Source: Buxus sempervirens
Lineage: Eukaryota; Streptophyta; Magnoliopsida; Buxales; Buxaceae
DNA length: 64,000 nt
Direction: 5' to 3'
Assembly: GCA_947561395.2 (NCBI GenBank)
Contig: OX387184.1
Location: forward strand, 42,584,766 to 42,648,765
Positions 4,987 through 57,023 of this stretch are shown one piece after another; position 1 is the stretch's first letter; each line of letters starts with the position of its first letter. The position numbers and the translations under genes are program-made. The notes beneath the pieces were generated by a model. The model made no database searches, was not told where the DNA came from, and was given only the letters and a program-made list of their open reading frames with translations.

Positions 4987-7295
4987 TGTGAGACATGGGA
5001 AAAATCACCGGAGTGATTCCCCCTCCGTCGGCACACGGGCTCAATGCAAAAATGGGAGAGTCGCCACCATCCAGAATTTTGGGGTGTGAATGGACACCAA
5101 AAAGTTCAAAAATATGCAAAAATAGCTAAAAGACAAATTCTCGAGTAAAAATAACCCTACTTGAAAATCAAATCCAGAGATGGGTAAGGGGATTAGATTA
5201 TGAACGGGGGAAGGTGTTAGGCACCCCCATTCATCCACACAAGGTGATTGCCAAGTGTTTGTTCATGCAAAAAAGATAAGAAAGCTTGCTAAAAATCATT
5301 AAAAACATTGGAAAAGAATTAAGCCAATGTGCGATATTTTCACATGAGGAATCCAATTGGATTCTAGATCCTCTTTTATGTCAATATTACTTCTGGAATA
5401 TCACAAAAAGATGGAAGTCAAAGCAAAAGTTGCACAAAACCAAGTTGAGGCAAATCCGGGAAATTTGGTAAAAAGCAATGCCTTTTGTCTTGAAATCATT
5501 CAAAATCAATTTTAAATTGAATCAAACCAAATCCAATTGAAAGATCATGGTAAATAAGAGACTCATGCAAAATTTTAAGTAAATCCGGTTGAGATCCTAG
5601 GAGTTATGCTCCTTTAAAGTTGCTGCTGGGGAAAATCAAAAGTGATAAGCATGCAAGTTTGGAAAATCACCTAGAAACATCCACTCCATAAAAATCCACG
5701 AAATTTGGTGTGATTGAAGTCTGTATGGCCATCTTTTGAACGAAACTAGCCTCATATAAAAATTCATTCAGATGTGCCTTGGGTGGTCTCCCGAACAGGC
5801 CCCGAAGATCACAAATTTACCCAGAAAAGTACTGATAAGCAGCTCTGGGTAAATCTGTTACCAATAATACAAATGGAGTCCAAAAATTATGAAACCAACT
5901 GGATTTGAAAATAGACTCATAGAGGAGTGACCAGAAATAAAAATCACTCGAATCGGACTTAAAACGAACACATGGAGCTCCGTCGAAGTGACAAGTTCCG
6001 TATTTAAACCTGAACTGTCCAATCAACTTCGACTGAGAGGTGTCAAAAATCCACTTGATCGAAATTAATGAAATTTGGTAAGCATAACCTAGACAGCCTC
6101 ACCTTTCCCATGGTTCTGGAATCACTCCAAAATTCATCCGGACGATAAAGTTATGAGTGTCCGAAGTCGGGATACAGTTGCTGTCAAGTTAGGCCTTATT
6201 TGGAGAAAAACAATTCAAAACTGTGACAAAGTGTGTGCAATTCGTGCAAGATGAATACAAATCCTTTAAAAATCATTTAAAGACATTCCAGAATTGATTG
6301 GGGCTATTTATTTCAGATTTATCACAATAAATGCAATAAACCCGAAATGTGAGCCTATCCCGCCAAAATCGTGCTATGTATGTGCAAGTGTGAAAAATCA
6401 TACAAGAACAATATAGCAACATAGCATGCATTCATCTTCATCAAAATAAGGTTCTAAAACAACCTAGGGTTCCGTTCCATTATCGTTTCCCTTAGTTCTC
6501 TCTCCCCGTTAAATACGGTTCTTCAAGATAATCTTGGGGTACTTTGAATATGAAACGGTTTTCAATCATTCAAAAGGCTTATGCAAGATAGGTTCTAGCA
6601 CTAGGATCAATCCCCAGTCTCATTTCTCCTAGATCCTGCCTTCACGTTTTACGGCTAGGGGGAGTCTTGAGATACTTTGAGCCAAGGAAGGGTTTTCATA
6701 CACATAGAAGGCATTATTCTACAGAAAGGTAGAAGAAGAGATCTAGATCTAGGAATGTAAATACAGAAAATAAAGAAGAGGTTTGAAGCTTACCTGGGGT
6801 TCTGGAAGCAATCCGGCGGCGGTTCCCTTCTTCACTCGGAGCTCTTGGATCTCCAACTTATTGGCCATTTGCTTGAGGAGGAGCCTCCTATTTATAAGCA
6901 AAGGCTAGGGTTGATGGTAGACACAACCTAATGTCTAGAGCCCACCAACCTTAACCCTAAGGCTGTTTTCGAGATTTCCCCTCATTTAATGAGAGACATG
7001 ATGGTAAAAAGTGAAATCACTCGGAAAACCCTAATTTTGAGCAAAACTTATGTATCCGGCATATCAGGCCAGATACACAAGGGCCTTAACGTATCTGGCA
7101 TATAATACCGGATACACTAAAGCTTTCTTGTATCCGGTATTTTCCATCGGATACAAAGAAGAGTACTTGTATCCGGCCTGAGTTGCCCGATACAAGTAAA
7201 AACATACTTTCTTCAATTTTTGTGCTGGCTTTCAAGGAGATAATGATTTTTGATGATTATTGATCATTTTGACAGTGCAATTTGGGGTGTCTACA
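4987..7295 (-). repeat. Element A 3' LTR
   Basis: This 2309-bp LTR runs on the minus strand from TGTAGACACC (ending at 7295) to the CA end at 4987. It contains four 27-nt palindromic units (7051-7194), a TATA box (TATAAATA, 6889-6896), telomere-like CCCTAA repeats just upstream, and a 5' splice donor (CAG|GTAAGC) near 6794. It differs from its partner LTR at clearly more sites than the element B LTRs differ from each other, which agrees with A being older. Confidence 0.92.
7051..7194. promoter_or_regulatory. Four 27-nt palindromic units, LTR U3 (element A 3' LTR)
   Basis: Four copies of the TGTATCCGG...CCGGATACA palindrome are spaced about 39 bp apart, the outer ones at 7051-7077 and 7168-7194. 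Several arms here have mutated (for example CCAGATAC and TATCTGG) compared with 54226-54369. Confidence 0.85.
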
Positions 7296-7309
7296 ACTGC
7301 CCCTCTTTG
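7296..7309 (-). other. Element A polypurine tract
   Basis: On the minus strand the sequence CAAAGAGGGGCAGT directly abuts the 3' LTR start. It is identical in type to the tract at 48303-48316 in element B, and primes plus-strand DNA synthesis in this class. Confidence 0.85.
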
Positions 7310-9200
7310 CGGGAGCTGCGAAGCAGTGAGCTGCAAAGATTAGACAAGCCCAAATTGCACTCCCTTAAGCATGATTTGCTTGGTTCAATTCAATTTTGTA
7401 AAAAACAATTTTTGGGTGAAGATTTGCCTAAAAGCCCTAACTTTAAGGGGGCATCTCTCCAAGAGTTCTTAAATTCCACTGAGCTCTTGTGGCTATAAAG
7501 TGGATTTTAAGCCCAAAAATATGATTTTTTGAAAACTAATTTTTTATCAAACCGAGTTGAAAATTGAGTGGGTATCTTCCTTTTTGACCAACACATTTCC
7601 CAAAGTTGTCCTAAATTCCATTGAGCTCTCGTGGCTGTGAGGTGGATTTTAAGGCAAAAATAGGATTTTGTAAGAAAATAGCTAACTTTGCAGTGCATTT
7701 TTGCTCTTTCTTTTTTTTTTTTTTTTCTCTCTTTCTTTTTTTTTCTTTTTCTTTTCTTTTTTCCTTTTTTTTTCTTTTTTTTCTGTTTTTTTCCTTTTGT
7801 ATCCGGTATGTTTATTTGGATAAGAGTGAGCTTGTGTGTATCCGACCTAATTCACCGGATACACATGCTTTTATTTAAGTCGCGCGCGACCGCGACTTTT
7901 CATTTCTTCTCTTCCTTCTCCGATTACTCAGACCGGCTACAGACCTTCGTCCCCGACGATCCTTCCCTTTTTTTTCGGCAACGGCTACTCAGATTCCGGC
8001 GACTCCTATTGTTGCCGGCGGTAGCCTGTAACTCTGGCCATTCTGGTGATCGCCCATTCACGAGCCCTAGCTCGGTTTCTTACTGATTTTTCTGATTTCC
8101 GGCGATTTTCTCAACTCGGCATGGGGTGTCTACTCCGGCGACTTGACTCAGCTTCCAAGACTCATCCGAAGATCATCTCTCCCTTGTAATCCGACCAAAT
8201 CAGTGAGCATCCGATCATTCCTCCTCTATTTTTTTTTCTGTTGTGTTGATTTGCTGCATGCTTAGAGCATTGGACGAATGGCATGACTTTCAGATTTGGC
8301 ATTTCGGATGCTTCTGATTCTTCATGAATTGCTGATACTATTGTTTGCTTTGGTTTCACAATTTGTCTGGCCAGATTTTTAATTCGACTGATTGCCTGTT
8401 GGTGATACTTTCTCCCAAATTATTGATTGCATGATTTTTTTTCTGTGATAATCTCCAATTGATGGCAGAAACCATTGCATTACTCGAAACCTGTCCATTG
8501 CTTGAAAACACTAAGCTGAGTTCCATGATCCCATGCTTCTGATATATTGCCCACTGACTTTCCGCGATGAGAATATGCTTATTTTTAGGTATGATGCTTA
8601 GGACTATAATTCTTCCTTTTCTGCATGTCACCTGATACTCTTAATTTCTGATTGATGCTCTGTTGTTCTGTACTTTGATTTGCCTTGCTAATTCTTGGCC
8701 AGCGATTCCTTTGAGGTGGATCGACATTTTCCACTGAGTTATATAACTTCCCACTGTTTTGGAATCACTAGTAGTGCAAACTTTCCAAATACCATGTTAT
8801 GATTGATTTTTCCTTGATCTGATTTTAGCATGCCTTTGACCAAAATGATGCTTCGACTGCCAAGACTTTTCCTTGATTGGCCCCCCGGGTTCCCCAGTTT
8901 ATTCCGATCCTTGATTTGCTTTTACAACACTGTCCAGCTCTCCTGTAGGGATCCTGAGGAAATTTAGCAAATATTAGTCCTTGTAAATGTCCTTAGAACA
9001 AAAAGTTCTAAAATCAGGATTTCACCAAATAGCAATACTCATCATTTTAGAAAACTTTGAACTGAAATAGACAAAATACCCTCGAGACACAATTTGGGAA
9101 ACAATCATGTAAATGTGAACTGCAACCTAAACCGAAAGCAAAGTAAAACTTCTGATGAATTTAAACTGTAATTCATAAAACACTTCCCTGTTGCTTTTAG
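7310..9200 (+). promoter_or_regulatory. Promoter and leader region of element A's antisense PMD gene
   Basis: From left to right it holds a 90-nt T-rich polypyrimidine run (about 7706-7797), two 27-nt palindromic units (7798-7863), a degenerate TATA (TTATTTAAG, 7871-7879), the palindrome GTCGCGCGCGAC (7879-7890) and a GC-rich leader to about 8160. AT-rich, probably intronic sequence follows, ending in TTGCTTTTAG at 9200 just before the ATG. The same order is seen on the minus strand at 46288-48300. The leader intron is inferred; its donor in A is not clear. Confidence 0.6.
7798..7863. promoter_or_regulatory. Two 27-nt palindromic units upstream of the antisense PMD gene (A)
   Basis: The units are 7798-7824 and 7837-7863, just upstream of the TATA-like element. 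The first is partly decayed in its right arm. They are equivalent to 47711-47776 in element B. Confidence 0.8.
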
Positions 9201-11779
9201 ATGGCTAGGAGTCGCTCCCGTGTGCAAGATGAGGTTGACCCAGCTGATCGGCCCTCTTCGTCTCGAGCTCGGATCGAGACGAGTTCTAGTGCTACCCTTT
9301 CAGAGCCTCTAGATGATTCCAGAGAGAGCTCTGCTGAGGGTTCTGCTGAGGTAGGCTTCTAAATCCTTCTTTTCTTCATTCCATTCTCTTTCCCACCCAA
9401 CCTTCACAATTCTCCTTTGAATTTTAGCACGTTGTTGCTCCGGCTCGAGGTCGGGGCAGAGGTCGAGGCCAAATTCAGGATCATGCCCCTGAGGGTGAGG
9501 AGGCCGTGGCAGAGGCCGAGGCTGAGGCAGAGCTAGAGGTGCAGCTCAGGATGGTGTTGCGGTAGCTTTGTCAGGGGTTTCTGCGGAGCTGAGAGCATCT
9601 GTTCATGATACAGAGCTCCTCAGTGGCTTGGATAGCCACCCCTCTATGTGTATCAGGGTCGACGTGCCTCTTCCATACCATTCTTCCCATTTGCGAGGCA
9701 GTTGGGGGAGATTTAGCGAGTTAGCTCAGTCGCTTTCTTCGGCACTCAGACGTGAGTTTGGGAGGTGCCACTTGGATCATTTCCTTAGCATCCCATCGTT
9801 CAGAGCCGACCGTCCACTCATCTTCGCCATGATGGAGAGATATTTTCCGGAGACTCAGTCATTCCATCTGCCGGACGTGGAACTGGGGATCCGCCCTTCC
9901 GACTTTGTGATGATTACTGGTATTCCTTTGACGGGGCGGACCATCGTCTTGGATCGGCCTTCTGCGGAGGACATCGGCCTCCTTCTGGGATATCAGGACC
10001 TGCCACCTGCTACTTGGGATGGGCAGAGTGGTCGTCTCTCCATTAGTTGGTTGCGGGAGAGCCTGGCTCGTCATTACGGGGGGAGACATACGACCGTCGC
10101 TGTGGAGGATGCCGCCTTTGTTCCCATCTTCCGACACGTTTTCCTGCTGATGCTCGGGAGTTGCTTCTTCCCGGAGGATATGACCAGTGTCAGCCCGCTT
10201 TTTTTGGATGCATTGCGAGATTTCCATCAGTCCCGCCAGCTAGCATGGGGTCGGCTCATCTATGGGACCATCCTGGCCGGGTTGTGCCGAGCGGTTCGAG
10301 GCCTGGCATCCCCGAAAGGTGATGGAGTCAGCTGCCGGTTTTTCTGGCAGATCCTGCAGGTATTAAGTTGTCTTGTCTCATTCCTTGGGCTTCATCTTCC
10401 TTTATTTCTGACTGATTTTTCTTTTGCCAGGTGTTTATGTACACCTATATGACCTTCTTCCGCCCATCCCCTGTATCTGGCGTTGCGGCGTTCCCTGTGG
10501 CTTTGAGGTGGTCGGCCCAAGTCCGAGATGCTGATAGGAGTCAGCCTCGCACTGCTCGGGTGCATTTGGACCGTGCCCGCCGATCCGATGTAAATCTTTT
10601 CTCCTTCTTCCTTTTATTTCTTTTTCTGCATCTTGACTGTATCTGACCATTTCTCTTTTTGCAGCTCATCCTGTCCCGCTTTGACGACGTGGATGTCGGA
10701 GTGGCCCGTGAGATGGCAGTACAGGACGCCTTTGATAGAGATCGGCGACGTCAGCCCTACCAGTGCTTCCTTGGGAGGCTTGGTAGGGTGATGTACTTGG
10801 GAGAGCGCCTGTACTATCAGCACACCGGCGCACTTCGTATCCCCGTTCCTCCTCCTCCTGTGGGTCCCGACACGCTCCTGCCGGGTTTCGATGCTGATCA
10901 GTTTGATCATTTCCAGGATGCGGAGGGGCTCACAGTAGCTGGGGATTACGACGAGTGGATCCAGAGAGTATCCATTGGGTGCTTGATGGATCGACCCACT
11001 CGTGCTGGGGTGACCGCGATTGGCGGGATCTGTATCCTGATCCATGAGGACACGGTGAGTCTTGTAATCTTCATATTGTAGCGCCCCAGATCCAGGTCTG
11101 CCCTATCACAACACCAACCCGCACCCGAGACCTACTTATGGGCCCAATAGAACCTGATAAACACAATTTCCTGGGCAATTACAATGTAATTATCAGAGTG
11201 CATGACTAAAGAAGCATGGAATAAAAATTTTCCATATAATCAAAAGATCATCTGTACTATAATCTCCAAAACATGATATACATGTGAACAAAATACAACT
11301 AAGGCAACTAACCATTCACAATGATCTCCCCAAAGTATACAGATAAGTACAAAAGATTCTTCCAAGAGTATAAGTCCAAAAATATTATTTACATCCCATA
11401 TACAATCCCCAAGAAAAAATACATCATCATAATAAGAACCCTACTACGAGTAGAAATGGTAGCCCTTTAGCCTTTACTCAAGCCCACCCTCAATAACTGC
11501 CCCGGTACGCAGCTCACCAAGCGGATCTGAAAACAAATCCGATAAAACAAAACACGCGTGAGACTTCAAGTCCCAGTAAGCAGCAAACATGCATGCAGAG
11601 AAATAGTTTATGCAATTTTGTAACATCATGATAATATTCACAAGTATAAGATACCAAATGTAAACTAAAACATCTCAAACAAATATAAAGTGTAATTCCA
11701 AGTCAAATATCTCAATCGGGTAATTCATGAAATCCAATCAACAATTCCAAGTCAAATGTCCAAATCAAATTAATGATCG

Positions 11780-16048: not shown

Positions 16049-16192
16049 TGTATCCGGCATATCAGACCGAATACATTGATTGTTCTTTGTATCTGGCATA
16101 ACATGCCGAATACACATGGTCACCTTTGTATCCGGCATACTTAACCGGATATGAATAGAACCTTTTGTATCCAATCTGAGTTGCCGGATACA
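16049..16192. promoter_or_regulatory. Four 27-nt palindromic units between the two antisense genes (A)
   Basis: The outer units are 16049-16075 and 16166-16192. The array ends 11 bp before the TATA box of the DUF7745 gene. The order of centre types (ATATCAG first, CTGAGTT last) is the reverse of the plus-strand order in the element B LTRs (AACTCAG first, CTGATAT last). Confidence 0.85.
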
Positions 16193-16203: not shown

Positions 16204-16210
16204 TATAAAT
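16204..16210 (+). promoter_or_regulatory. TATA box of the antisense DUF7745 gene (A)
   Basis: GCTATAAATGC lies about 112 nt upstream of the ATG at 16322 and is conserved in element B (43215-43221 on minus), although flanking sequence differs. Confidence 0.65.
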
Positions 16211-16321
16211 GCAACCAGCCTCGGGATTTGCGAATTTTTTTACGAGTTTTTGAGTTTAGAAAACTCCTTTTTCACCTTTTTCTTTCTCCCATTGAGTTCT
16301 AGCTTGCTCCCATCATCTCCA

Positions 16322-18054
16322 ATGGATTCCGGATCATCTTCTGCCTTGCCATTGTCTATCCACACAGCCTCCCCTGCAAAACAACCTTTTAGATCAAAAC
16401 CCCCTAATCTTACTAGGTAAAACCCTGTAGATCCCTTTTACACTAGATGGGTTAACTCTATGACCCTGGATGAGGAGAGGAGATGGGATTCCAACCATCT
16501 TGGCCACCTTTTGCTTATCCCGAAGGTTCCCTTCAAATGGGAGATTATTGAAGCCATGATTGGCCATTGGGTACCCGACCTTAACCTTTTTTGTTTTGGG
16601 GACCATAAGATGACCCCAACCATTGAGGAGGTGGAAACCATCCTGGGCTTGAGGTTTGATGAGAAGGTAGTGAATCCACCCCTTAAGCCCAGCTACAAGA
16701 AGGAGGCTTCTACTTTCCTAGGCATAGGGAAGAAGGATTTAGGGGATTCTGACACCCTATTGACTTTGTCAAAGGCTTTTTTGACTGAGAAGCTCTTGAG
16801 GGGGGAAAATAAGGAAGCCCAGTTCAACGCCTTGACCCTGATAGTGGTCAACCAGCTACTTTTCCCACGAGATGATGATGAGGTGGACTTGGCCCTAATC
16901 TCCGTGGTATGGCAGGTTAGGGAGCGGGAGAGGTTGGCCCCTATGATTTTGGCTGAGATGTACCAGGCACTGACTGACTGCTACAATAGGAAGTCGAAAC
17001 GCTTCTTAGCATGTGCCCCGCTCCTGCAGGTAATTTTTTCCCTTTTTTTCTTTTTTTGCTTTTTTGCTTTCTTTTTGCCTTTTTTGCTTTCTTTTTGCCT
17101 TTTTTGCTTTTTTTGCTTTTTTTTTTTTTACAATGCTGATATATCTCTCTTCCTTTGCAGCTTTGGCTACTTGATCATTTGAGTCAGATTGAGGAGATCA
17201 ATCGACACTTCTTCCCCAGCTTGAAGGTTCCTATCTTGATGAGCAACCGGGGGTGTCCTAACATTCCAGGGGGTAAACAGGGCTGGTTCACCTTCTTGGG
17301 TTCACTCCAGGATGATCAGGTGAGATGGCCTGGTACTTATCAACCCAATGCAGAGACCATGATTAGCTTCCGAGACCGCAACTTTCTGGTTCTAGCTGAC
17401 CTGAGGCATGCAGTGCTTTACTTTCCTTTGCGGGTCCTTCGTCAGTTCAGAGCGACTCAGGGGATTATCATCCCAAGTGGGTATGAGGATCATCTTGGGC
17501 CCCTTACTCCAGCTACCATGAAGCTGAATGCCTGGTTGATAAGGGAGTGGTCCTATGTTCACTTCATGCGTAGCCCCGTCTTCTCAGAAGCCCATGTGAA
17601 GGATTATCTCTTCTGGATCAAGGAGCGGATACAGAGTCAGGCCCCAGTACCCGAAGATCCTCCTGCAGTCTTGGCTCCTACTTATGAGAATATTTTAGAG
17701 TCTGAGAGAGCTTCCCACAAGCGACTTCAGCAGTAATGGGTATGGGAGGCCCAGGAGCTCAGGATACGGGGCCTTGACATGGAAAGGCAACTTGCAGAGC
17801 AGGTATCTCACCATCTGGCTATGGAGAAGCAACTTGAAGAGCATAGGCAGGCCCGCTGTCTTGAAGTCCGAGCACTGAGGCAGAAGCACCAGGATGCTTT
17901 AGCTGACCTTAGGAGCATGCGGATTCGGCAGACTCTTTCAGATGAGGTCATTTCCTTCTTGAGTGATCCCGCTGCAGAGGGGGCTTCTGGAGTTATTGCA
18001 GCTCAGGCAGCTCGAATTCGGGAGCTTGAGGAGCGGCTAGGAGACAGAGATTAG
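16322..18054 (+). pseudogene. Antisense DUF7745-like gene of element A, 2 exons, decayed
   Basis: Exons 16322-17029 and 17161-18054 flank an intron with a very T-rich 3' part. The undamaged gene would encode about 533 residues. Exon 1 holds the motif block RRWDSNHLGH...GHWVPDLNLF...MTPTIEEVETILGLR, typical of plant DUF7745 proteins, which are related to PMD proteins and common in Tat elements. Exon 2 includes VLYFPLRVLRQFRATQGI and a C-terminal coiled coil with many Glu, Arg and Gln. In-frame stops are TAA at 16418-16420 and TAA at 17734-17736; element B has sense codons at both places. Function is unknown. The gene ends tail-to-tail with pol. Confidence 0.75.
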
Positions 18055-27237: not shown

Positions 27238-27381
27238 TGTATCCGGCATTAAGGGCCGGATAAGGATATGTCTTATTGTATCCGGTAATAATGACCGGAT
27301 ACACGCATATACCTTTGTAACCGGCAATTTATACCGGATATGAATGGAATTGTTCTTAACTGGCCTGAGTTGCCGGTTAAT
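27238..27381. promoter_or_regulatory. Four 27-nt palindromic units in the leader (A)
   Basis: The outer units are 27238-27264 and 27355-27381. The last has the variant arms TTAACTGG and CCGGTTAA around the CTGAGTT centre, matching the first unit of the B leader array at 31608-31634 in inverse orientation. Confidence 0.8.
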
Positions 27382-40100: not shown

Positions 40101-40507
40101 ATGGAATGGAAGCAGTCTTGCCAGTGGAAGTAGAAATCCCATCACTCAGAGTGCTCATGGAAGCAGAACTGGAAGAAGCCGAATGGGTACAGTCAAGACA
40201 TGATCAACTCAACCTAATAGAAGAGAAGCGATTGAAAGCACTATGTCATGGCCAAATGTACCAGAGGAGAATGGCCCGGGCCTACAATAAGAAAGTGAGG
40301 CCCAGAACTTTCCAAGAAGGAAACCTAGTTCTAAAGAAAATCTTACCAATTTTGGAAGACCCTCGTGATAAGTTCAAGCCGAATTGGGAGGGGCTATATG
40401 TCGTCAAGAAGGTCCTGTCAGGGGGTGCACTCATCTTGACAGAAATGGATGGAACAGATTTTCCTGAGCCAATTAACTCCGATGCAGTAAAAAGGTATTT
40501 TCCTTGA
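37130..40507 (+). CDS. pol: Element B RT - RNase H - archaeal-type RNase H - integrase, 1125 codons open
   Basis: Approximate residues: RT 140-310 (CVDYRDLNKASPKDD; MDGFSGYNQI with D193; YVDD 255-258). The gypsy RNase H spans 385-510 and lacks the usual first acidic residue (LYLSVLETSM). A second, archaeal-type RNase H spans 550-670 with D555, E593, D617 and D667. Integrase has a zinc-binding H/C set at 776-817 and catalytic D846, D907, E943 (D,D35E), then a GPY/F-like module (PNWEGLYVV) and the end KRYFP. Two RNase H domains are the hallmark of Tat elements. No stop or frameshift is present, so these enzymes could be made if translated. The upstream frame is broken, so the listed start is only the first ATG of the open piece. 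Confidence 0.93.
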   Translation: MGIEEETEVEEEDIPKEIEYQLERHEKGVQPNIEETISIYLGTEKDPKIVKIRSCLSNVQQNEMSQFLADYKDVFAWSYRDMPGLDTDMVVHKLPILPGVKPIKQKLRKLKPKRTLKVKDEVVKQFQAEFLAVSTYPEWLANIVPIPKKDGKVRMCVDYRDLNKASPKDDFPLPHIDILVDNTAVHSLFSFMDGFSGYNQIKMAEEVQEKTAFITPWGTFHYTVMPFGLKNAGATYQRAMTALFHDMIHKEMEVYVDDMIAKSCKEEDHLINLKKVFDRLRKYSLRLNPAKCVFGATSGKLLGFIVSRRGIEIDPAKAKAIIEMPAPRTEKEVRGFLGRIQYISQFIAQLTAICEPIFKLLRKDNPTIWNEDCQQAFDTIKRYLLNPPVLVPPTPGRPLILYLSVLETSMECVLGQHDETGRKERTIYYLSKKFTEYEAKYSPLEKTCCALVWATQRLRHYFLSHSTLLISRMDPLKYLFEKLALTGRTAKWQLLLSEFDLTYITQKAIKGQAIADHLAAHPLLEYQPLKTNFPDEAILYTEEEESESSWQMFFDGAANMNGNGIGAILVKPDGSHIPIAVKLRFQCTNNIAEYEACIIGLQAAMDYEVEELDVYGDSSLIIFQTTGEWKTKDHKWIPYHQYLEEISTNFTRISFNYMPRAKNQFADALVTLASMVSIPEGVDIRPLEIEVRDEPAYCLVLEGAPEEETPWFQDIKNFLNNRSLPENATSTEKRTIQRLAGQFLLSGGHLYKRSHNDIMLRCVAKTESERLIETVHGGICGPHMSGHMLAKKILRLGYYWSTMEHDCCIHVRRCHQCQIYADNKHAPPSELYNMTSPWPFSMWGIDVIGMISPKASNGHRFILVAIDYFTKWVEAASYANITSNHVIKFLKHNIICRYGLPSAIVSDNASNIKNKDMKKMCEQFQITHHRSAPYRPKMNGAVEAANKNIKKIIQKMVVSYKDWHEMLPLAVHAYRTSIRTSTGATPYSLVYGMEAVLPVEVEIPSLRVLMEAELEEAEWVQSRHDQLNLIEEKRLKALCHGQMYQRRMARAYNKKVRPRTFQEGNLVLKKILPILEDPRDKFKPNWEGLYVVKKVLSGGALILTEMDGTDFPEPINSDAVKRYFP

Positions 40508-41450: not shown

Positions 41451-43105
41451 CTAATCTCTGTCTCCTAGCCGCTCCTCAAGCTCCCGAATCCGAGCTGCCT
41501 GAGCTGCGATAACTCCAGAAGCCCCCTCTGCAGCGGGATCACTCAAGAAGGAAATGACCTCATCTGAAAGAGTCTGCTTAATCCGCATGCTCCTAAGGTC
41601 GACTAAAGCATCCTGGTGCTTCTACCTCAGTGCTCGGACTTCAAGACAGCGGGCCTGCCTATGTTCCTCAAGTTGCTTCTCCATAGCCAGACGGCGAGAT
41701 ACCTGCTCTGCAAGTTGCCTTTCCCTGTCAAGGCCCCGTATCCTAAGCTCCTGGGCCTCCCGTACCCATATCTGCTGAAGTCGCTTGTGAGAAGCTCTCT
41801 CAGACTCTAAAATATCCTCATAAGTAGGAGTCAAGACTGCAGGAGGATCTTCGGGTACTAGAGCCTGACTCTGTATCTGTTCCCTGATACAGAAGAGATA
41901 GTCCTTCACATGGGACTCTGAGAAGACGGGGCCCCGCATGAAGCGAACATATGACCACTCCCTCATCAACCAGGCATTCAGCTTCATGGTAGCTGGAGAA
42001 AGGGGCCCAAGATGATCCTCATACCCACCTGGGATTATAATCCCCTGGGTCGCTCTGAACTGACGAAGGACCCGCAAAGGAAGGTAGAGCACCGCATGTC
42101 TTAGGCCAACCAGAATCAGAAAATTACGGTCTCGGAAGCTGATCACGGTCTCTGCATTGAGTTGATAAGTACCAGGCCATCTCACCTGATCATCCTGGAG
42201 TGAACCCAAGAAGGTGAACCAGCCCTATTTACCCCCTGGAATGTCAGGACACCCCTGGTTGCTCATCAAGATAGGAACCTTCAAGCTGGGGAAGAAGTGT
42301 CGATTGATCTCCTCAATCTGACTCAAATGATCAAGTAGCCAAAGCTGCAAAGAAAAAGAGATATATCAGCATTGAAAAAAAAAAGCAGAAAAAATTACCT
42401 GCAGGATCTGGGCACATGCTAAGAAGCGTTTCGACTTCCTATTGTAGCAGTCAGTCAGTGCCTGATACATCTCTGCCAAAATCATAGGGGCCAACCACTC
42501 CCGCTCCCTAACCTAGCATATCACTGAGATTAGAGCCAAGTCTACCTCATCATCATCTCGTGGGAAAAGTAGCTGGTTGACCACCATCAGAGTCAAGGCA
42601 TTAAACCTAGCTTCCTTATTTTCCCCTCTCAAGAGCTTCTCAGTCAAAAAAGACTTAGACAATGTCAAAAGGGTGTCAGAATCCCCTAAGTCCTTCTTCC
42701 CTATGCCCAAGAAAGTAGAAGCCTCCTTCTTGTAGCTGGGCCTAAGAGGCAGGTTCACTACCTTCTCAACAAACCTCAAACCCAAGATGGTTTCAACCTC
42801 CTCAATGGTTGGGGTCATCTCATGGGTCCCAAAATGGAAAAGGTTGAGGTCGGTACCCAATGGCCAATCATGGCTTCAATAATCTCCCATTTGAAGGAAA
42901 CCTTTGGGATAAGCCGAATGTGGCCTAGGTGGTTGGAATCCCATCTCCTCTCCTCATCCAAGGTCATAGAATTAACCCACCTATTATATAAAGAGTCCAT
43001 GGGATTGTACCTAGTAAGATTAGGTGGTTTTGATCTAAAAGGCTGTTTTGCAGGGGAGGCTGTGTGGACAGACAATCGCAAAGCAGAAGATGATCCGGAT
43101 TCCAT
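41451..43105 (-). pseudogene. Antisense DUF7745-like gene of element B, 2 exons, decayed
   Basis: Exon 1 is 42399-43105 (ATG at 43105) and exon 2 is 41451-42344, both with GT-AG borders equivalent to A. Exon 2 is 894 nt in both copies; exon 1 is 707 nt against 708 in A. The missing base (around 42855) shifts frame after GHWVP. Further in-frame stops are TAG at 42513-42515, 42225-42227 and 41622-41624, all at CAG codons in A. Recognisable parts are the DUF7745 core, VLYLPLRVLRQFRATQGI and a coiled-coil tail. Its own TATA box (43215-43221) and palindromic array lie upstream. Function is unknown. Confidence 0.78.
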
Positions 43106-43214
43106 TAGATATGATGGAAGCAAGCTAGAACTCAAGGGGAGGAAGAAAAAGGCGAAAAAGGGGGTTTCTAAACTCAAAAACTCGTAAAAATACGCAAATC
43201 CCGAGGCTGGTTGC

Positions 43215-43221
43215 ATTTATA
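43215..43221 (-). promoter_or_regulatory. TATA box of the antisense DUF7745 gene (B)
   Basis: On the minus strand GCTATAAATGC lies about 110 nt upstream of the ATG and 12 bp downstream of the palindromic array. It matches A at 16204-16210. Confidence 0.65.
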
Positions 43222-43232: not shown

Positions 43233-43376
43233 TGTATCCGGTAACTCAGACCGGATATAAAAGGTTCTATTCATATCCGGTTAAGTATGCCGGATACAAA
43301 GGGGACCATGTGTATCCGGCATGTTATACCGGATACAAAGAACAATCAATGTATCCGATCTGATATGCCGGATACA
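43233..43376. promoter_or_regulatory. Four 27-nt palindromic units between the two antisense genes (B)
   Basis: The outer units are 43233-43259 (centre AACTCAG) and 43350-43376 (centre CTGATAT). The spacing of about 39 bp and the order of centres are the same as in the LTR arrays. Confidence 0.87.
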
Positions 43377-43575: not shown

Positions 43576-46287
43576 CTACTGTGCAGGATCATCCCCGCGT
43601 CCTCGGCCGCGTCCGCCTCTACGGCCTCTCCCTCAAAGTGATAGGCCCTTAGAGTATGCCAGAATATGCTCGGCATCGTGACGAGGAAGCCGACCCACCA
43701 CTTGCTGGATCTGATACTTCATGCAATACTCCCCGAGGTCTGGGGGCGGAGCAGGAGCAGAATCTGGAGAGGATGCCTCGGGCTCAGCACGAGCAGGCTC
43801 GACGGGACCCGCAGATCCAGAAGGCCCAGCAGCATCAGAGGAAGGGCCAGGAGCAGAAATATCTGTGCCAAATGGAGATAAAGTCAGAAATAAAAATGTC
43901 AAAATGAACCAAAAAGGGAAAATTAAAGAAAACATACCAGGGATATCTACAGCAGAGACTGGGGGATCCGACTCCACTGGGTCAGCAGCAGGGATGTCCT
44001 CCGGCTCAGGAACCATCACTGGAGATGAAGGAGCTGCCAGGGCATCCGCAGCAGCAGCTGGGACGTCCACAGGATCAGTAGCCCGAGCGGGAGACAGGTC
44101 AGGAATGAGGAAATCATGCTCAAAGGCAGCGCCATGATCCGGGACCGGGCCCTGCAAAAGTCAAACCGGCATATCAGAATAGCAGAATAGTAGAAACATG
44201 AAAGAAATGAAATTATAAGAAGACCAGATACCTGTCTAGCCCGGAGCTCAGCAACTAGGGCCTCCAGCTCCCTGATCCGGGCATCCCTCTGGGCCATGAC
44301 CGCATCATACTCGGCGATCATATCATCAATCGCGGCCCGCTGGCTCTCGAACCGATCCCGAATAGTATTCAGCTCGTGTACTTGCCAATAAGAACAGAAT
44401 TGGGGTCAGAAATACAGAAGGGAAGAAAAGTGGATGAAAATATGAAGATTACAAGACTCACCGTGTCCTCATGGATCCGGATACAGATCCCGCCAATCTC
44501 GGTCACCCCGGCACGAATGGGTCGATCCATCAAGCACCCAATGGATACTCTCTGGATCCACTCGTCGTAATCCCCAGCTACTGTGAGCCCCTCCGCATCC
44601 TAGAAATGATCAAACTGATCAACATCAAAACCCGGCAGGAGCATGTCGGGACCGACAAGAGGAGGAGGAACGGGGATACGAAGTGCGCCGGTGTGCTGAT
44701 AGTACAGGCGCTCTCCCAAGTACATCACCCTACCAAGCCTCCCAAGAAAGCACTGGTAGGGCTGACGGCGCCGATCTCTATCAAAGGCGTCTTGTACTAC
44801 CATCTCACGGGCCACTCCGACATCCACGTCATCAAAGAGGGCCAGGATAAGCTGCAAAGAAGAAAAATGGTCAGATACAGTTAAGATGCAGAAAAAGAAA
44901 TAAAGGGAAAAAGGAAAGGGGGTTTACATCAGATCGGCGGGCACGGTCCAAGTGCACCCGAGCAGTGCGAGGCTGACTCCTATCAGCATCTCTGACCTGG
45001 GCCGACCAGCGTAAAGCAACAGGGAAATCCACGACCCCAGGTACCGGGGATGGGCAGAAGAAGGTCATATAGGTGTAAATAAACACCTATCAAAAGAAAA
45101 ATCAGTCAGAAATAAAGGAAGATGAAGCCCAAGGAATGAAACAAGACAACTTAATACCTGTAGGATCTGCCAGAAGAACCGACAGCTGACTCCATCACCT
45201 CTCGGGGATGCCAGGCCTCGAACCGCTCGGCACAACCCAGCTAGGATGGTCCCATAGATGAGTCGACCCCATGCTAGCTGGCGAGTCTGATGGAAATCTC
45301 GCAAAGCATCCAAGAAAAGCGGGCTGACGCTGGTCATATCCTCCGGGAAGAAGCAGCTCCCGAGCATCAGCAGGAAAACATGCTGGAAGATGGGAACAAA
45401 GGCTGCGTCCTCCACAGCGACGGTCGCATGTCTCCCCCCGTAATGACGAGCCAGGCTCTCCCTCAACCAACTAATAGAAAGGTGACCACTCCGCCCATCC
45501 CAAGCAGCATGAGGCAGGTCCAGATACCCCAGGAGGAGGCCAACATCCTCCGTAGAAGGCCGATCCAAGACGATGGTCCGCCCCGTCAAAGGAATACCAA
45601 TGATCATCACAAAATCGGAGGGGCGGATCCCCAACTCCACGTCCGGCAGATGGAATGACTGAGTCTCCGGAAAATATCTTTCCATCATGGCGAAGATGAG
45701 TGGATGGTCGGCTCTGAACGATGGGATGCTAAGGAAATGATCCAAGTGGCACCTCCCAAACTCACGTCTAAGTGCTGGGGAAAGCGACTGTGCCAATTCA
45801 CTGAATCTCCCCCAACTGCCTCGCAGATGGGAAGAATGATATGGAAGAGGCACATCGGCCCTGATACACATAGAGGGGTGGCTATCCAAGCCACTGAGGA
45901 GCTCTGTATCATGAACAGATGCTCTCAGCTCCTCAGAGACCCTTGACAGAGCTACAGCAGCACCATCCTGAGCCACACCTCTGGCTCTGCCACGGCCTCC
46001 CTCACCCTCAGGGGCCTGATCCTGAACTCTGCCTCGGCCTCTACCTCGACCTCGAGCAGGAGCAACCACGGGCTAAAATTCAAAAGAGACGTGTGAAGGT
46101 GGTGTGGGAAAGAGAATAGAAGGAGGAAAAGAAGAACTTGAAAGCCTACCTCAGCAGAGCTCTCTCTGGAGTCATCTAATGGCTCAGACAAAGTGGCGCT
46201 AGAACTCGCCTCTGTCCGAGCCCGCGAGGTGGAAGGCTGGTCAGCAGGGTCAACCTCCTCCCGCACACGAGAACGACTCCTAGCCAT
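43576..46287 (-). pseudogene. Antisense plant mobile domain (PMD) gene of element B, 7 exons, decayed
   Basis: Exons on the minus strand are 46150-46287, 45158-46072, 44928-45086, 44462-44851, 44232-44380, 43938-44151 and 43576-43862. Exon 1 encodes an Arg/Ser-rich N-terminus. Exon 2 (305 codons, open) encodes an RG-rich stretch and the PMD core (FAMMERYFPETQSFHLPDVE). Exon 5 is a coiled coil, and exons 6-7 are Pro/Ala-rich. Exon 7 ends early at a TGA (43633-43635), losing the RG-rich tail seen in A. TAG at 44600-44602 interrupts exon 4 (CAG in A), and the acceptor of exon 5 reads GGCAAG instead of GGCAGG, shifting frame by one. PMD proteins are nuclear; a role in counter-silencing is only a hypothesis. 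Confidence 0.82.
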
Positions 46288-47384: not shown

Positions 47385-47710
47385 TGGAAGAACAGTGAAT
47401 TGAGTGGCTGATTACAAGTGGGAACTAAAGGGCGAGTCGCCGGAGCAGACACTCCAATACCACGCAGAGAAATCGCGAAAAATCAGAAGGAACGAGCTAG
47501 GGCTCGATCGCGGCCTTGAATGGACGACCAATGGAATGTCGCCGGAATCTCAGGAGGTCGCCGGAAACAAGAGGCTCGTCGGAAATGGCCAGAGAAGAAA
47601 GGAAGATCATTGGGAGACGAAGAAGAGAGGAGATGTAGCCGGTTTGAGTAATCGGAGAAGGAAGAAAGAATAGGGAAAGTCGCGGTCGCGCGCGACTTTA
47701 TAAAACCCTG
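47385..47710 (-). promoter_or_regulatory. Promoter and first non-coding exon of the antisense PMD gene (B)
   Basis: On the minus strand TTTTATAAA (47697-47705) is followed directly by the perfect palindrome GTCGCGCGCGAC (47685-47696) and a GC-rich leader. The palindrome and its position are conserved in A (7879-7890). The start of transcription should lie near 47670. Confidence 0.6.
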
Positions 47711-47776
47711 TGTATCCGGTAAATCAGACCGGATACACACAAGGTCATTCGTATCCGGTATATTATACCGGATACA
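47711..47776. promoter_or_regulatory. Two 27-nt palindromic units upstream of the antisense PMD gene (B)
   Basis: Units 47711-47737 and 47750-47776 are both near-perfect palindromes. They end 6 bp upstream of the TATA box when read on the minus strand. Confidence 0.87.
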
Positions 47777-48316: not shown

Positions 48317-50653
48317 TGTAGACACCCCAAATTGCACAATAATCATCAAAAATCATTATCTCCTTGAAAGCCAGCACAAAAATTGAAGAAAATAAGTTTT
48401 TACCTGTATCCGGCAACTCAGGCCAGATACAAGTACTCCTCTTTGTATCCGGTGGAACATACCGAATACAAGAGAGCTTTAGCGTATCCGGCATTCTACG
48501 CCAGATACCTTAAGGCCCTTGTGTATCCGGCCTGATATGCCGGATACATAAGTTTTGCTCAAAATTAGGGTTTTCCGAGAGCTTTTCACTTTTACCATCA
48601 TATCCCTCATTAAATGAGTGGAAATCTCGGAAATGGCCTTAGGGTTAAGGTTGGTGGGCTATAGACATTATGTTGTGTCTACCATTCTTACCAACCCTAA
48701 CCCTAACCTTTGCCTATAAATAGGAGGCTCCTCCTTAAGCAAAAGGCCATTAATTCTCTTGCCAATAATTCTTGCCAAGAATCTCTGCCAAGAAGAGCTC
48801 CGAGTGAAGAGGAAAACCGCTGCGGAATTGCTTCCAGAACTCAGGTAAGCCTCAAACCTATCTTTTATTTTCTGTTTTACATTTCTAGATCTAGATCTCT
48901 TCTTCTACCTTTCTGTAGAATAAAGCCTTTTTGTGTGTATGAAAATCCTTCCCCGGCTCAAAGTATCTCAAGACTCCCCCTAGCCGTAAAACGTGAAGGC
49001 GGGATCTAGGAGAAACGAGACTGGGGATTGACCCTAGTACTAGAACCTATTTAGAATAAAGCCTTTTGAATGATTGAAGCCCGTTTCATATTCAAAGTAC
49101 CCCATGATTATCTTGAAGAACCGTGTTTAACGAGGAGAGAGAACAAAGGGAAACGATAATGGAACGGAACCCTAGGTTGCTTTTAGAACCCTATTTTAAA
49201 TGAATGAGAATGCATGCTATGTTGTTATATTGCTCTTGAATGATTTTCACTTACACATACATTCCACCTACTTTGGCGGGATAGGCTCAAATTTTGGGTT
49301 TATTGCATTTATTGTGATAAATCTGAAATAAATAGCCCCAATCAATTCTGGAATGTCTTTAAATGATTTTTAAAGGATTTGTATTCATCTTGCACGAATT
49401 GCACACACTTTGTCACAGTTTTGAATTGTTTTTCTCCAAATAAGGCCTAACTTCACAGCAACTGTACCCCGACTTCGGACACTCATAACTTCATCGTCCG
49501 GATGAATTTTTGAGTGATTCCAGAACCATGGGAAAGGTGAGGCTGTCTAGTTTATGCCTACCAAATTTCATTAATTTCTATCAAGTGTATTTTTGACACC
49601 TCTCTGTCGAAGTTGATTGGACAGTTCAGGTTTAAATACGGAACTTGTCACTTCGACGGAGCGCCATGTGTTCGTTTTAAGTCCGATTCGAGTGATGTTT
49701 GTTTCTGGGCACTCCTTTATGAGTCTATTTTCAAATCCAGTTGGTTTCATAATTTTTGGACTCCATTTGTATTATTGGTAACAGATTTACTCAGAACTGC
49801 TCATCAGTACTTTTCTGGGTAAATCTGTGATCTTCGGGGCCTGTTCGAGAGACCACCCAAGGCACATCCGAATGAATTTTTTTATGAGGCTAGTTTCATT
49901 CGAAAGATAGACATACAGACTTCACCCACACCAAATTTTATGGATTTCTATGGAGCCGAGTTTTCTAGGTGAGTTTCCAAACTTGCACACTTGCCACTTT
50001 TAATCATCCCCAGCAGCAACTTTAAAGGAGCATAACTCCTAGGATTTCAACCGGATTGACTTGAAATTTTGCATGAGTCTCTTATTTACCATGATCTTTC
50101 AAATGGATTTGGTTTGATTCAATTTAAAATTGATTTTGAATGATTTCAAGACAAAAGGCATTGCTTTTTACCAAATTTCCCGGATTTGCCTCAACTTGGT
50201 TTTGTGCAACTTTTGCTTTGACTTCCATCTTTTTGTGATATTCCAGAAGTGATATTGACATAAAAGAGGATCTAGAATCCATTTGGATTCCTCATGTGAA
50301 AATATCACACATTGGCTTAATTCTTTTCCAATGTTTTTAATGATTTTTAGCAAGCTTTCTTATTTTTTTTGCATGAACAAACACTTGGCAACCACCTTGT
50401 GTGAGTGAATGGGGGTGCCTAACACCTTCCCCCGTTCATAATCTAATCCCCTTACCCATCTCTGGATTTGATTTTCAAGTAGGGTTATTTTTACCCTAGA
50501 ATATGTCTTTTAGCTATTTTTGCTTATTGATTGAATCTTTTGGTGTCCATTCACACCTCAAAATTCTGAATGGTGGTGACTCTCCCAATTTTGTGTTGAG
50601 CCCGTGTGCTGACGGAGGGGAAATCATCCCGGTGATTTTTCCCGTGTCTCATA
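48317..50653 (+). repeat. Element B 3' LTR
   Basis: This 2337-bp LTR is nearly identical to 27562-29897. It holds four palindromic units (48405-48548) and a TATA box (48715-48722). Its last two bases are TA instead of CA, a single change compared with the 5' LTR; the following CCTTC confirms the border. Confidence 0.95.
48405..48548. promoter_or_regulatory. Four 27-nt palindromic units, LTR U3 (element B 3' LTR)
   Basis: Units lie at the same LTR offsets as in the 5' LTR, for example 48405-48431 and 48522-48548. Several arm and centre bases differ from the 5' LTR array (such as CCAGATAC at the first and third units), so this is one of the more variable parts of an otherwise near-identical LTR pair. 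Confidence 0.85.
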
Positions 50654-52164: not shown

Positions 52165-54469
52165 TGTGAGACATGGGAAAAATCACCAGGGTGATTCCCC
52201 CTCCGTCGGCACATGGGCTCAACGCAAAAATGGGAGAGTCGCCACCATTCAGAATTTTGCGGTGTGAATGGACACCAAAAAGTTCAAAAATATGCAAAAA
52301 TAGCTAAAAGACAAATTCTCGGGTAAAAATAACCCTACTTGAAAATCAAATCCAGAGATGGGTAAGGGGATTAGATTATGAACAGGGGAAGGTATTAGAC
52401 ACCCCCATTCATCCACACAAGGTGGTTGCCAAGTGTTTGTTCATGCAAAAAAGATAAGAAAGCTTGCTAAAAATCATTAAAAACATTGGAAAAGAATTAA
52501 GCCAATGTGTGATATTTATACATGAGGAATCCAAATGGATTCTAGATCCTCTTTTATGTCAATATCACTTCTAGAATATCACAAAAAGATGGAAGTCAAA
52601 GCAAAAGTTGCACAAAACCAAGTTGAGGCAAATCCGGGAAATTTGGTAAAAAGCAATGCCTTTTGTCTTGAAATCATTCAAAATCAATTTTAATTGAATC
52701 AAACCAAATCCATTTGAAAGATCATGGTAAATAAGAGACTCATGCAAAATTTCAAGTCAATCCGGTTGAAATCCTAGGAGTTATGCTCCTTTAAAGTTGC
52801 TGCTGGGGATGATTAAAAGTGGCAAGTGTGCAAGTTTGGAAACTCACCTAGAAAACTCGGCTCCATAGAAATCCATAAAATTTGGTGTGGGTGAAGTCTG
52901 TATGTCTATCTTTCGAATGAAACTAGCCTCATAAAAAAATTCATTCGGATGTGCCTTGGGTGGTCTCTCGAACAGGCCCCGAAGATCACAGATTTACCCA
53001 GAAAAGTACTGATGAGCAGTTCTGAGTAAATCTGTTACCAATAATACAAATGGAGTCCAAAAATTATGAAGCCAACTGGATTTGAAAATAGACTCATAAA
53101 GGAGTGCCCAGAAACAAACATCACTCGAATCAGACTTAAAATGAACACATGGCGCTCCGCCGAAAAGACAAGTTCCGTATTTAAACCTGAACTGTCCAAT
53201 CAACTTCGACAGAGAGGTGTCAAAAATCCACTTGATAGAAATTAATGAAATTTGGTAGGCATAAACTAGACAGCCTCACCTTTCCCATGGTTCTAGAATC
53301 ACTCCAAAATTCATCCGGACGATGAAGTTATGAGTGTCCGAAGTCGGGGTACAGTTGCTGTGAAGTTAGGCCTTATTTGGAGAAAAACAATTCAAAACTG
53401 ACAAAGTGTGTGCAATTCGTGCAAGATGAATACAGATCCTTTAAAAATCATTTAAAGACATTCCAGAATTGATTGGGGCTATTTATTTCAGATTTATCAC
53501 AATAAATGCAATAAACCCGAAATGTGAGCCTATCCCACCAAAATCGTGCTATGTATGTGCAAGTGTGAAAAATCATACAAGAACAATATAGCAACATAGC
53601 ATGCATTCATCTTCATCAAAATAAGGTTCTAAAACAACCTAGGGTTCCGTTCCATTATCGTTTCCCTTAGTTCTCTCTCCCCGTTAAACACGGTTCTTCA
53701 AGATAATCTTAGGGTACTTTGAATATGAAACGGTTTTCAATCATTCAAAAGGCTTATGCAAGATAGGTTCTAGCACTAGGATCAATCCCCAGTCTCGTTT
53801 CTCCTAGATCCCGCCTTCACATTTTACGACTAGGGGGAGTCTTGAGATACTTTGAGCCAGGGAATGGTTTTCATACACATAAAAGGCCTTATTCTATAGA
53901 AAGGTAGAAGAAGAGATCTAGATCTAGGAATGTAAATACAAAAAATAAAGAAGAAGTTTGAGGCTTACCTGGGGTTCTGGAAGCAATCCGGCGGCGGTTC
54001 CCTTCTTCACTCGGAGCTCTTGGATCTCCAACTTATTGGCCATTTGCTTGAGGAGGAGCCTCCTATTTATAGGCAAAGGCTAGGGTTGATGGTAGACACA
54101 ACCTAATGTCTAGAGCCCACCAACCTTAACCCTAAGGCTGTTTCCGAGATTTCCCCTCATTTAATGAGGGACATGATGGTCAAAAGTGAAATCACTCGGA
54201 AAACCCTAATTTTGAGCAAAACTTATGTATCCGGCATATCAGGCCGGATACACAAGGGCCTTAACGTATCCGGCATATAATACCGGATACACTAAAGCTT
54301 CCTTGTATCCGGTATGTTCCACCGGATACAAAGAGGAGTACTTGTATCCGGCCTGAGTTGCCGGATACAAGTAAAAAGTTACTTTCTTCAATTTTGTGCT
54401 GGCTTTCAAGGAGATAATGATTTTTTATGATTATTGATCATTTTGACAGTGCAATTTGGGGTGTCTACA
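52165..54469 (-). repeat. Element A 5' LTR
   Basis: This 2305-bp LTR runs on minus from TGTAGACACC (54469) to CTCACA (52165). It contains four palindromic units (54226-54369), a TATA box (54064-54071) and a splice donor (CAG|GTAAGC, about 53969). Its palindromes are better preserved than those in the A 3' LTR. Confidence 0.93.
54226..54369. promoter_or_regulatory. Four 27-nt palindromic units, LTR U3 (element A 5' LTR)
   Basis: The outer units are 54226-54252 (ATATCAG centre) and 54343-54369 (CTGAGTT centre). Both have perfect 10-bp arms. Confidence 0.88.
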
Positions 54470-54474
54470 ATGAG
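54470..54474. repeat. Target site duplication of element A, right
   Basis: ATGAG matches 4982-4986. Confidence 0.9.
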
Positions 54475-56110: not shown

Positions 56111-56879
56111 GATCACTTGAAATCAGTTCAAGGAATTCTAAAGGATTGATCTAAGGCTATTAATCTCAGATCTTTCATAATGAACATGATAGATCCAAAA
56201 TATAAGCCTATATTACACCGAAACAAGTGAGATGTGTGTTTGTGTAAAAAAATAGATTTTTAGGGGAGAATAGAAATCCAATGCTATAAAGAACATGGAT
56301 CTTGGTATTATCTCCAGAAAATGAAATCAAACTCACGACATTAATCAACACACATGAATCTCAATGTATATCATTCAAAAAGGGGTTCTATACCTAGAGT
56401 TCCATTCCTATTCTCGTTTCCCCTAGCTCTCTCTTCACGTTTTATGACTAGAGAGAGTCTTGAGGTACTTTGAGATGGGTTTGGGGTTTCAAATACACAC
56501 AGGCTTTACAATACATAAATGTAGAAGAAAAGACTAACCCTAGAATTTAAAAACAGAAAAGAAAAAGGGTTAGAGGCTTACCTAGATTTCTGAATGCAGA
56601 GGTAGGGGTTCCCTTCTTCACTTGGCACTCTTCAATCTCCAATTTCTGGCCATTTGCAAAAGGGGAGGCCCTCTATTTATAAGCAAGAGCTAGGGCAATA
56701 AAGTCACAAGGGTAGACACAAAAGTGTGTCTAGAACCTTCCAACTTAACCTTAAAGCATTAGTTCCAAGGCATTTGGCTAATCTCGGAGGCTAAATTCAG
56801 GAATTCCCACTTCTTAGACAGAGGTATAGACGTAAATAAGTGAAAACTCTCGGGATTTTTTCATATGGAATAAAACATT

Positions 56880-57023
56880 AGTATCTGACAACTCAGGTCA
56901 GATACAAATAATAATCTTTGTATCCGAAATTATATTTCGGATACATTGAACATTGTTTGTATCCGAAAATAGTTTTCGGATACAGAGAAATGAGCTTTTA
57001 TCCGAATTCTAATTTCGGCTACA
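56880..57023. promoter_or_regulatory. Four diverged 27-nt palindromic units (solo LTR)
   Basis: Units are 56880-56906, 56919-56945, 56958-56984 and 56997-57023. The middle two have arms TGTATCCGAAA and TTTCGGATACA, so G-to-A changes in one arm are matched by C-to-T in the other, and unit length stays 27. Confidence 0.82.

Follow-up and report, generated by a model that had tools for sequence, protein, structure and literature searches.

What reads a short palindrome that recurs at a fixed pitch beside the predicted promoters of two nested plant retrotransposons? The question is raised by a 64,000-nt stretch of Buxus sempervirens DNA (assembly GCA_947561395.2, contig OX387184.1, positions 42,584,766–42,648,765; the whole stretch is called the window and all positions below count from its first letter), in which long terminal repeat (LTR) retrotransposon B, on the plus strand, is inserted in the leader of a relative, element A, on the minus strand. 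Both elements carry clusters of a 27-nt palindromic unit in their LTRs, in their leaders and upstream of two antisense genes, one encoding a plant mobile domain (PMD) protein and the other a DUF7745 protein. The reading to which we lean, while stopping short of confidence in it, is that the array is a platform for a dimeric, sequence-specific DNA-binding regulator, which would most likely be the element's own antisense product (PMD or DUF7745) acting in feedback on the LTR and on its own promoters.

The palindromic unit and its clusters

The unit is TGTATCCGGY-N7-RCCGGATACA, a double half-site in inverted orientation around a 7-bp spacer. The window holds 40 such units in 11 clusters, nine with four units and two with two (Table 1), as the initial annotation had counted, and the spacing that it gave as about 39 bp is exactly 39 bp in 29/29 within-cluster steps (best register, ±6 bp). 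Linkers are 12 bp, which gives platforms of 144 bp (four units) or 66 bp (two units). Scanning without gaps for the consensus arms (at most 6 mismatches in 20 positions) returns 45 sites, 38 inside the 11 clusters and seven scattered singles. The remaining two units (27355–27381 and 31608–31634) are the first leader units of A and B, which the scan missed because their arms are TTAACCGGY (13/20 arm positions each), on both sides in B and with one right-arm change in A.

The pattern in IUPAC code with at most 3 mismatches has 33 hits compared to none in 100 dinucleotide shuffles. Half-sites with at most one mismatch occur 31 and 31 times in the two orientations within clusters and 7 and 8 times outside them, and 200 scrambled half-site motifs occur on average 4.3 times in the window, with 19 as the largest count. 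A periodic-dyad scan that admits any sequence (10-nt arms matching at 8 positions or more, spacer 2–25, period 20–89, minimum of three units) recovers the module in 7 of the 11 clusters, and all of its other rows belong to a 74-bp tandem repeat in the leaders; it misses both two-unit clusters, which are under its minimum, and the clusters at 16049 and 27238, which did not pass. The exact palindrome pattern has no match in viral contigs, and four stretches in prokaryote genome contigs match it (L001–L004, two from Paenibacillus and two from Peptococcaceae).

The clusters share descent because spacers of first and last units are common to different site types: read in element orientation, the first is AACTCAG in LTR, leader and DUF7745 clusters (PMD clusters have the variants AAATCAG and GAATTAG) and the last is CTGATAT in LTR and DUF7745 clusters. 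First and last spacers also mirror each other (TCAG/CTGA) in LTR and DUF7745 clusters. With its 144 bp, a four-unit cluster (e.g., 54226–54369 or 43233–43376) is close in length to one nucleosome core.

Constraint on the dyad

Five site types can be compared: LTR, leader, DUF7745, PMD and a diverged LTR-like copy in the window. Across site types, identity in the B set with the diverged copy is 77% in arms (1961/2560), 42% in spacers (372/896) and 36% in linkers (286/792); for the A set with the diverged copy the values are 0.75, 0.39 and 0.36. Half-site positions 3–4 (TA) are invariant in 80/80 half-sites, and spacing has not moved by a single base despite linker drift. Alignments of A with B contain no gap events in 498 bp of cluster compared to 24 in 1995 bp of flank (p 0.008). 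Left and right arms match in 157/180 pairs in the B set versus 140.8 when right arms are dealt across all units (p 0.0002), and at 150/180 versus 136.8 in the A set (p 0.0008). Dyad geometry is thus constrained across site types and, as set out next, in the diverged LTR, which supports the initial proposal of a cis-acting module.

The diverged LTR-like copy starts near 57095 and has an approximate low edge near 54950; it also holds four copies of a 168-bp tandem repeat (55447–56112). Its cluster keeps 58/64 of the outer eight half-site positions relative to A, and only 2/16 of the inner two, 12/28 spacer positions and 14/36 linker positions, while the 330-bp flank keeps 193/286 aligned bases with 88 gap columns. 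Compared to B, the values are 55/64 (outer), 2/16 (inner), 14/28 (spacers) and 13/36 (linkers). Outer positions are better kept than the flank (A; p 1e-4) and than spacers and linkers together (26/64; p 2e-9). At position 9, all diverged half-sites have A (8/8), compared to 5/72 in A and B; the p value of 4e-8 overstates this contrast, since the two LTRs of an element both contribute to the 72 and half-sites within an array are interdependent. A is also the base at position 10 in 6/8 diverged half-sites, a change that cytosine deamination would not produce from C or T. The last unit, in LTR orientation, has the spacer CTGAGTT, and 37/40 arm pairs of the copy are still symmetric. This symmetric switch of inner bases on both arms is the best evidence for a symmetric protein that would read each half-site, with a specificity that appears to move with the family.

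Placement at predicted promoters

In A and B alike, a cluster is present in either LTR and in the leader, and the DUF7745 and PMD genes are each preceded by one. Promoters are predictions from TATA-like boxes. LTR clusters lie 154–198 bp upstream of the LTR TATA box, and a TATA-like box lies 8–11 bp downstream of the cluster, on the antisense strand, in 4/4 antisense promoters, which represent two site types in two related elements and not four independent cases. TATAWA is expected 0.03 times within 20 bp, and the strict motif is present in three of the four antisense cases. For the leader clusters, the nearest TATA-like box in the sense direction is a TATAAAAA located 92–93 bp downstream (31845–31852, plus strand, and 27138–27145, minus strand); it lies in A/T-rich DNA in both elements and is a possible internal sense promoter. 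According to the initial annotation, the module sits upstream of every predicted promoter. This holds for the LTRs and the two antisense genes and must be limited to them because the leader clusters have no adjacent TATA-like box. The cis module that it took to be common to the LTR promoter and both antisense promoters is borne out by cluster positions and TATA-like boxes.

The PMD and DUF7745 antisense proteins

Both elements have the two antisense genes between pol and the 3′ LTR; the DUF7745 gene of B was identified via alignment to A. The first DUF7745 exon is split into two reading frames in B (42513–43216) and is open in A. Pairwise dN/dS values between A and B, which carry no significance test and compare the first DUF7745 exon of B by one piece, are 0.11 and 0.33 for PMD (two exon pieces of 260 and 89 codons) and 0.13 and 0.29 for DUF7745 (two pieces of 111 and 151 codons), with 0.06 for pol and 0.08 for gag. 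With values well below 1, both antisense proteins look conserved, in line with the earlier suggestion that an element-encoded protein binds the module. Coiled-coil families have weak matches in further antisense frames (best E 0.0081), which would fit dimers and prove nothing. The N-terminal tail of the B PMD open reading frame (ORF) is rich in RG repeats, as is that of relative P0001; such repeats are common in nucleic-acid-binding proteins.

A search with the window PMD found one relative among 7991 candidates scored, and that relative found 52 including itself; a DUF7745 search found no relative at E ≤ 0.01. Alignment A2 combines 49 of the 52 relatives (P0017, P0051 and P0052 were left out) with three window exons, two of PMD and one of DUF7745, and the 49 are 19–25% identical to the window PMD. 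DUF1985, the domain of the VANC proteins considered below, is matched by 26/52 PMD-alignment members at E ≤ 1 (best 1.8e-5, below the Pfam cut-off of 35.1 bits); DUF7745 is matched by four members in the same scan and each other family by one. When relatives are scanned singly, 6/10 match DUF1985, always within DUF1985 positions 79–139 and, going by the ranges given, in one and the same part of PMD. P0031 is among the DUF1985-matching relatives. Seven stretches that match a PMD pattern were also considered, and none encodes a relative (0/7). A reverse transcriptase (RT) fragment has no match in viral contigs.

A proposed feedback regulator and its alternatives

The proposed mechanism starts from the unit as paired half-sites, about tGTATCCGGY and its inverted partner 7 bp away, with each platform presumably bound by a dimeric protein. 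Neighbouring protein copies on a platform would need fixed spacing, which the 39-bp pitch could provide. The binder would most likely be PMD or DUF7745, and its targets would be the LTR promoter and the promoters from which its own genes are expressed. The element could then recognise, switch on or keep open all of its transcription units in a feedback loop. The basis for this proposal is the array, its rigid spacing, the dyad, the symmetric switch, TATA-adjacent placement and low dN/dS in both proteins. From these we infer protein binding, an element-encoded origin of the binder and an activating or anti-silencing effect.

Several results weigh against this proposal. On the antisense side of the leader clusters (27238 and 31608), the nearest 130 bp contain no TATA-like motif, and these clusters mark no obvious promoter. 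Pairing of left and right arms is not significant when arms are dealt inside clusters (p 0.11; A set p 0.16), so that the symmetry belongs to clusters as wholes and not to individual units. In the A–B comparison, arms are no better kept than flanks (25/280 versus 307/3777 substitutions, p 0.65; 28/280 versus 341/3781, p 0.59, with 3′ LTRs replacing 5′ LTRs), spacers (11/98) or linkers (9/120), and CpG retention is not significantly better (23/31 versus 58/95, p 0.20; 20/31 versus 59/98, p 0.83, with 3′ LTRs). The A–B arm comparison is low in power because many differences may be post-insertion decay, and it still gives no support. With one relative, the diverged sample is small, and one homogenisation of its array could explain several matching changes; spacers and linkers of the diverged units differ among themselves despite these matching changes. 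On the protein side, the predicted PMD fold (pLDDT 78) has no match among solved structures, and no DUF1985 match is reported for the window's own PMD and DUF7745 exons (four pieces) up to E 10, a range in which HMMER filters drop most matches above E 0.1.

The main rival is a host dimeric transcription factor, such as a MYB-related or GARP protein reading TATCC/GGATA, whose enhancer the element would have borrowed and copied to its other promoters. TATCC/GGATA cores are read by plant MYB-related factors, and promoter-proximal placement fits any activator. However, the change at position 9 in 8/8 diverged half-sites would suit a co-evolving element factor better than a conserved host factor, and a rigid 4 × 39-bp array would in our judgement be unusual for a host enhancer; we regard this explanation as possible but rather unlikely. 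An improbable alternative is that the array marks the element for silencing, insulation or nucleosome placement with a host repressor or boundary factor as its reader. The consensus half-site contains CCGG and with it CG and CHG methylation sites, the four-unit length approximates that of a nucleosome core, and leader clusters without an adjacent TATA-like box would suit a boundary more than a promoter site. The nucleosome length does not apply throughout, however, as PMD clusters stop at two units and 66 bp, and an element would seem to gain nothing from keeping a host silencing target under constraint.

A role at the RNA level, in which units would form stem-loops (10-bp stem, 7-nt loop) that serve packaging, processing or translation of genomic or antisense RNA, is very unlikely. 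Every unit has the potential to form a hairpin, and genomic RNA would include the U3 copy of the 3′ LTR as well as those in the leader. Leaving aside the 3′ LTR clusters of both elements, 32 units provide 320 arm pairs, of which 270 are Watson-Crick, 16 are G-U (sense strand), 22 are A-C and 12 are other combinations. A selected sense-strand RNA stem would tolerate G-U more than A-C, and the absence of a G-U lean among mismatched pairs therefore argues for DNA over RNA. A dimeric DNA-binding protein is also favoured over a hairpin because outer bases are kept while the inner two have switched symmetrically. In addition, the predicted transcription starts of the antisense genes lie downstream of their clusters, and hairpins should need no fixed 12-bp linker; the pair counts were the ground for setting the RNA reading aside. 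Least probable of all is that the arrays are functionless relics of tandem duplication. Arms of A and B do drift like their flanks, and the unit-1 spacer AACTCAG, common to LTR, leader and DUF7745 sites, indicates shared descent; but linkers and spacers have fallen to 36–42% identity between site types while arms and spacing were kept, and the diverged LTR retains nearly all of its outer bases (58/64).

Anatomy and classification of the elements

The second RNase H domain (aRH) in the polyprotein defines the Tat clade of Ty3/gypsy (OTA), and its position between RNase H (RH) and integrase is the Ogre/Retand arrangement, according to the excerpted account of these lineages (PMC6317226). The pol ORF of B contains this second domain and has it between RH and integrase, in the order RT, RT_RNaseH (395–499), RVT_3 (554–672) and integrase (839–936; Pfam). 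The same account gives a plant mobile domain in 57% of Ogre elements (PMC6317226); A and B have a PMD extra ORF of this type in antisense orientation, a trait that is frequent in Ogre and does not define it. TRP28 (PF04195), which marks the Retand antisense ORF, has no match among the window ORFs scanned with Pfam, which are a part of all ORFs.

The leader upstream of gag contains the 74-bp tandem repeat (A, 26465–26951, 6.5 copies; B, 32048–32986, 12.6 copies), mostly 73–77% alike between A and B over the portions in which the two repeat arrays align with each other. Two plant signal recognition particle (SRP) RNA genes (Rfam RF01855; 574–879 and 63071–63376) lie in stretches that are ~98% identical, and the nested retrotransposons sit between both copies of this duplication. 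An Rfam scan of the window at gathering thresholds found nothing beyond these two genes.

Table 1. Clusters, TATA-like boxes, LTRs and ORFs of elements A and B and of the diverged LTR-like copy (positions in the window).
Feature	Position	Strand	Remarks
4-unit cluster, A 3′ LTR (U3)	7051..7194	−	
2-unit cluster upstream of A antisense PMD gene	7798..7863	−	one unit 14/20 arm positions
4-unit cluster upstream of A antisense DUF7745 gene	16049..16192	−	
4-unit cluster, A leader	27238..27381	−	first-unit arms ATTAACCGGC / GCCAGTTAAG
4-unit cluster, A 5′ LTR	54226..54369	−	
4-unit cluster, B 5′ LTR	27650..27793	+	
4-unit cluster, B leader	31608..31751	+	
4-unit cluster upstream of B antisense DUF7745 gene	43233..43376	+	
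2-unit cluster upstream of B antisense PMD gene	47711..47776	+	
4-unit cluster, B 3′ LTR	48405..48548	+	
4-unit cluster, diverged LTR-like copy	56880..57023	−	two perfect units, arms TGTATCCGAA / TTCGGATACA
LTR TATAAATA box, A 3′ LTR	6889..6896	−	154 bp from cluster
LTR TATAAATA box, A 5′ LTR	54064..54071	−	154 bp from cluster
LTR TATAAATA box, B 5′ LTR	27960..27967	+	166 bp from cluster
LTR TATAAATA box, B 3′ LTR	48715..48722	+	166 bp from cluster
TATAAATA box, diverged LTR	56674..56681	−	198 bp from cluster
TATAAATG box, A antisense DUF7745 gene	16204..16211	+	11 bp from cluster
TATAAATG box, B antisense DUF7745 gene	43214..43221	−	11 bp from cluster
TATTTAAG box, A antisense PMD gene	7872..7879	+	8 bp from cluster
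TATAAAGT box, B antisense PMD gene	47695..47702	−	8 bp from cluster
Element A 3′ LTR	4987..7295	−	95.6% identical to 5′ LTR; edges TGTAGACACC..GTCTCACA
Element A 5′ LTR	52165..54469	−	outer sides carry 5-bp repeat CTCAT, read from flanks
Element B 5′ LTR	27562..29897	+	98.9% identical to 3′ LTR
Element B 3′ LTR	48317..50653	+	flanking repeat CCTTC if LTR end is TA, not CA
pol ORF of B	37130..40507	+	RT, RNase H, RVT_3 (second RNase H-like), integrase
PMD-domain ORF, antisense gene of A	9568..10452	+	PF10536 E 2.2e-14; dN/dS 0.11 versus B
PMD-domain ORF, antisense gene of B	45065..46069	−	PF10536 E 1.6e-14
DUF7745 ORF, antisense gene of A	16460..17182	+	PF24924 E 8.1e-23; PMD E 2.4e-12
Further DUF7745 frame of A, stop to stop	17140..17736	+	weak, PF24924 E 0.13, profile 214–340 (C-terminal part)
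Corresponding B frame, stop to stop	41622..42224	−	itself weak PMD match E 0.15; dN/dS 0.29 versus A

Relation to known systems and implications

Published systems are compared here on the strength of excerpts from the papers cited. DUF1985 is a domain of VANC proteins, one of which, VANC21, binds to arrays of a 9-base motif (YAGTATTAY) in its own element (PMC5735166); VANC is a plant transposon protein that lifts silencing via clustered motifs in its own DNA (PMC5735166, PMC10398659). Like the present module, VANC motifs in Arabidopsis VANDAL elements are short and clustered in non-coding parts of the element, are family-specific and change in step within a family (PMC5735166, PMC10398659), and the protein family is encoded by the transposable element. 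Unlike the module, the VANC21 motif occurs in one orientation, at high density and in dynamic tandem repeats, whereas the units described here are inverted pairs with an exact 39-bp pitch beside promoters. VANC is encoded by VANDAL, a Mutator-like DNA transposon, whereas A and B are LTR retrotransposons with gag, RT and integrase; and binding and loss of silent marks are shown for VANC, while the module is known from its sequence. The VANC analogy, which the initial annotation had drawn, gains a sequence link through the weak DUF1985 matches in half of the PMD alignment and does not extend to the window's own exons, which lack such a match.

A retroelement example is foamy virus Tas, a regulator that forms dimers and binds to the LTR promoter as well as to an internal promoter from which its own gene is transcribed (PMC4929722). 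The likeness is one of outline and no homology is claimed; Tas belongs to an animal retrovirus and is an unrelated protein as far as known; neither Tas nor VANC is a proven homologue. As judged from sequence, the module is common to LTR and internal promoters in a Tas-type arrangement, with internal promoters that are antisense. The foamy virus internal promoter has the same sense as the genome.

Retand and Grande have antisense ORFs between pol and the 3′ LTR (PMC11963269, PMC7264820, PMC6317226). In Grande, gene23 is driven by a promoter of its own and encodes a nuclear protein; TRP28 is predicted to bind DNA, with a suggested regulatory role, and tandem repeats are described as well (PMC11963269, PMC7264820). 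A and B resemble Retand, Grande and Ogre in their antisense or extra ORFs, with PMD as in many Ogre elements, but the excerpts of these accounts describe no palindromic module common to LTR and antisense promoters (PMC11963269, PMC7264820, PMC6317226). The DOWN motif of genes that need the host PMD proteins MAIN and MAIL1 is likewise a promoter motif linked to PMD proteins, but its MORC1 promoter copy reads CATGCAGTTT, which is dissimilar to the unit, and the excerpts report no direct binding (PMC7156037, PMC9899485). Palindromes at insertion sites, treated in an account of nesting, are a separate matter (PMC6911290).

A search of the literature on Tat PMD proteins, antisense extra ORFs and palindromic U3 elements, with most subscription papers outside its reach, found no such module among the matches listed, which for the half-site strings include no paper on retrotransposons. 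In mainly open literature, no paper was found that joins DUF1985 with the plant mobile domain or names DUF7745.

More tentatively than for the feedback reading itself, we suggest that PMD and DUF7745 proteins of Ogre/Tat elements could be VANC-related dimeric DNA-binding regulators, each family having a private co-evolving palindromic array, at its LTR and at the antisense promoters of the regulators, for self-recognising feedback or anti-silencing, and that host MAIN and MAIL1 could be their domesticated descendants. Excerpted accounts, which deal with antisense ORFs and TRP28 and do not single out PMD or DUF7745, call the function of antisense genes in large plant retrotransposons unknown (PMC7264820, PMC11963269). 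A defined cis target at antisense and LTR promoters makes this function testable, and the PMD–DUF1985 link may provide a route from transposon regulators to the host silencing factors MAIN and MAIL1.

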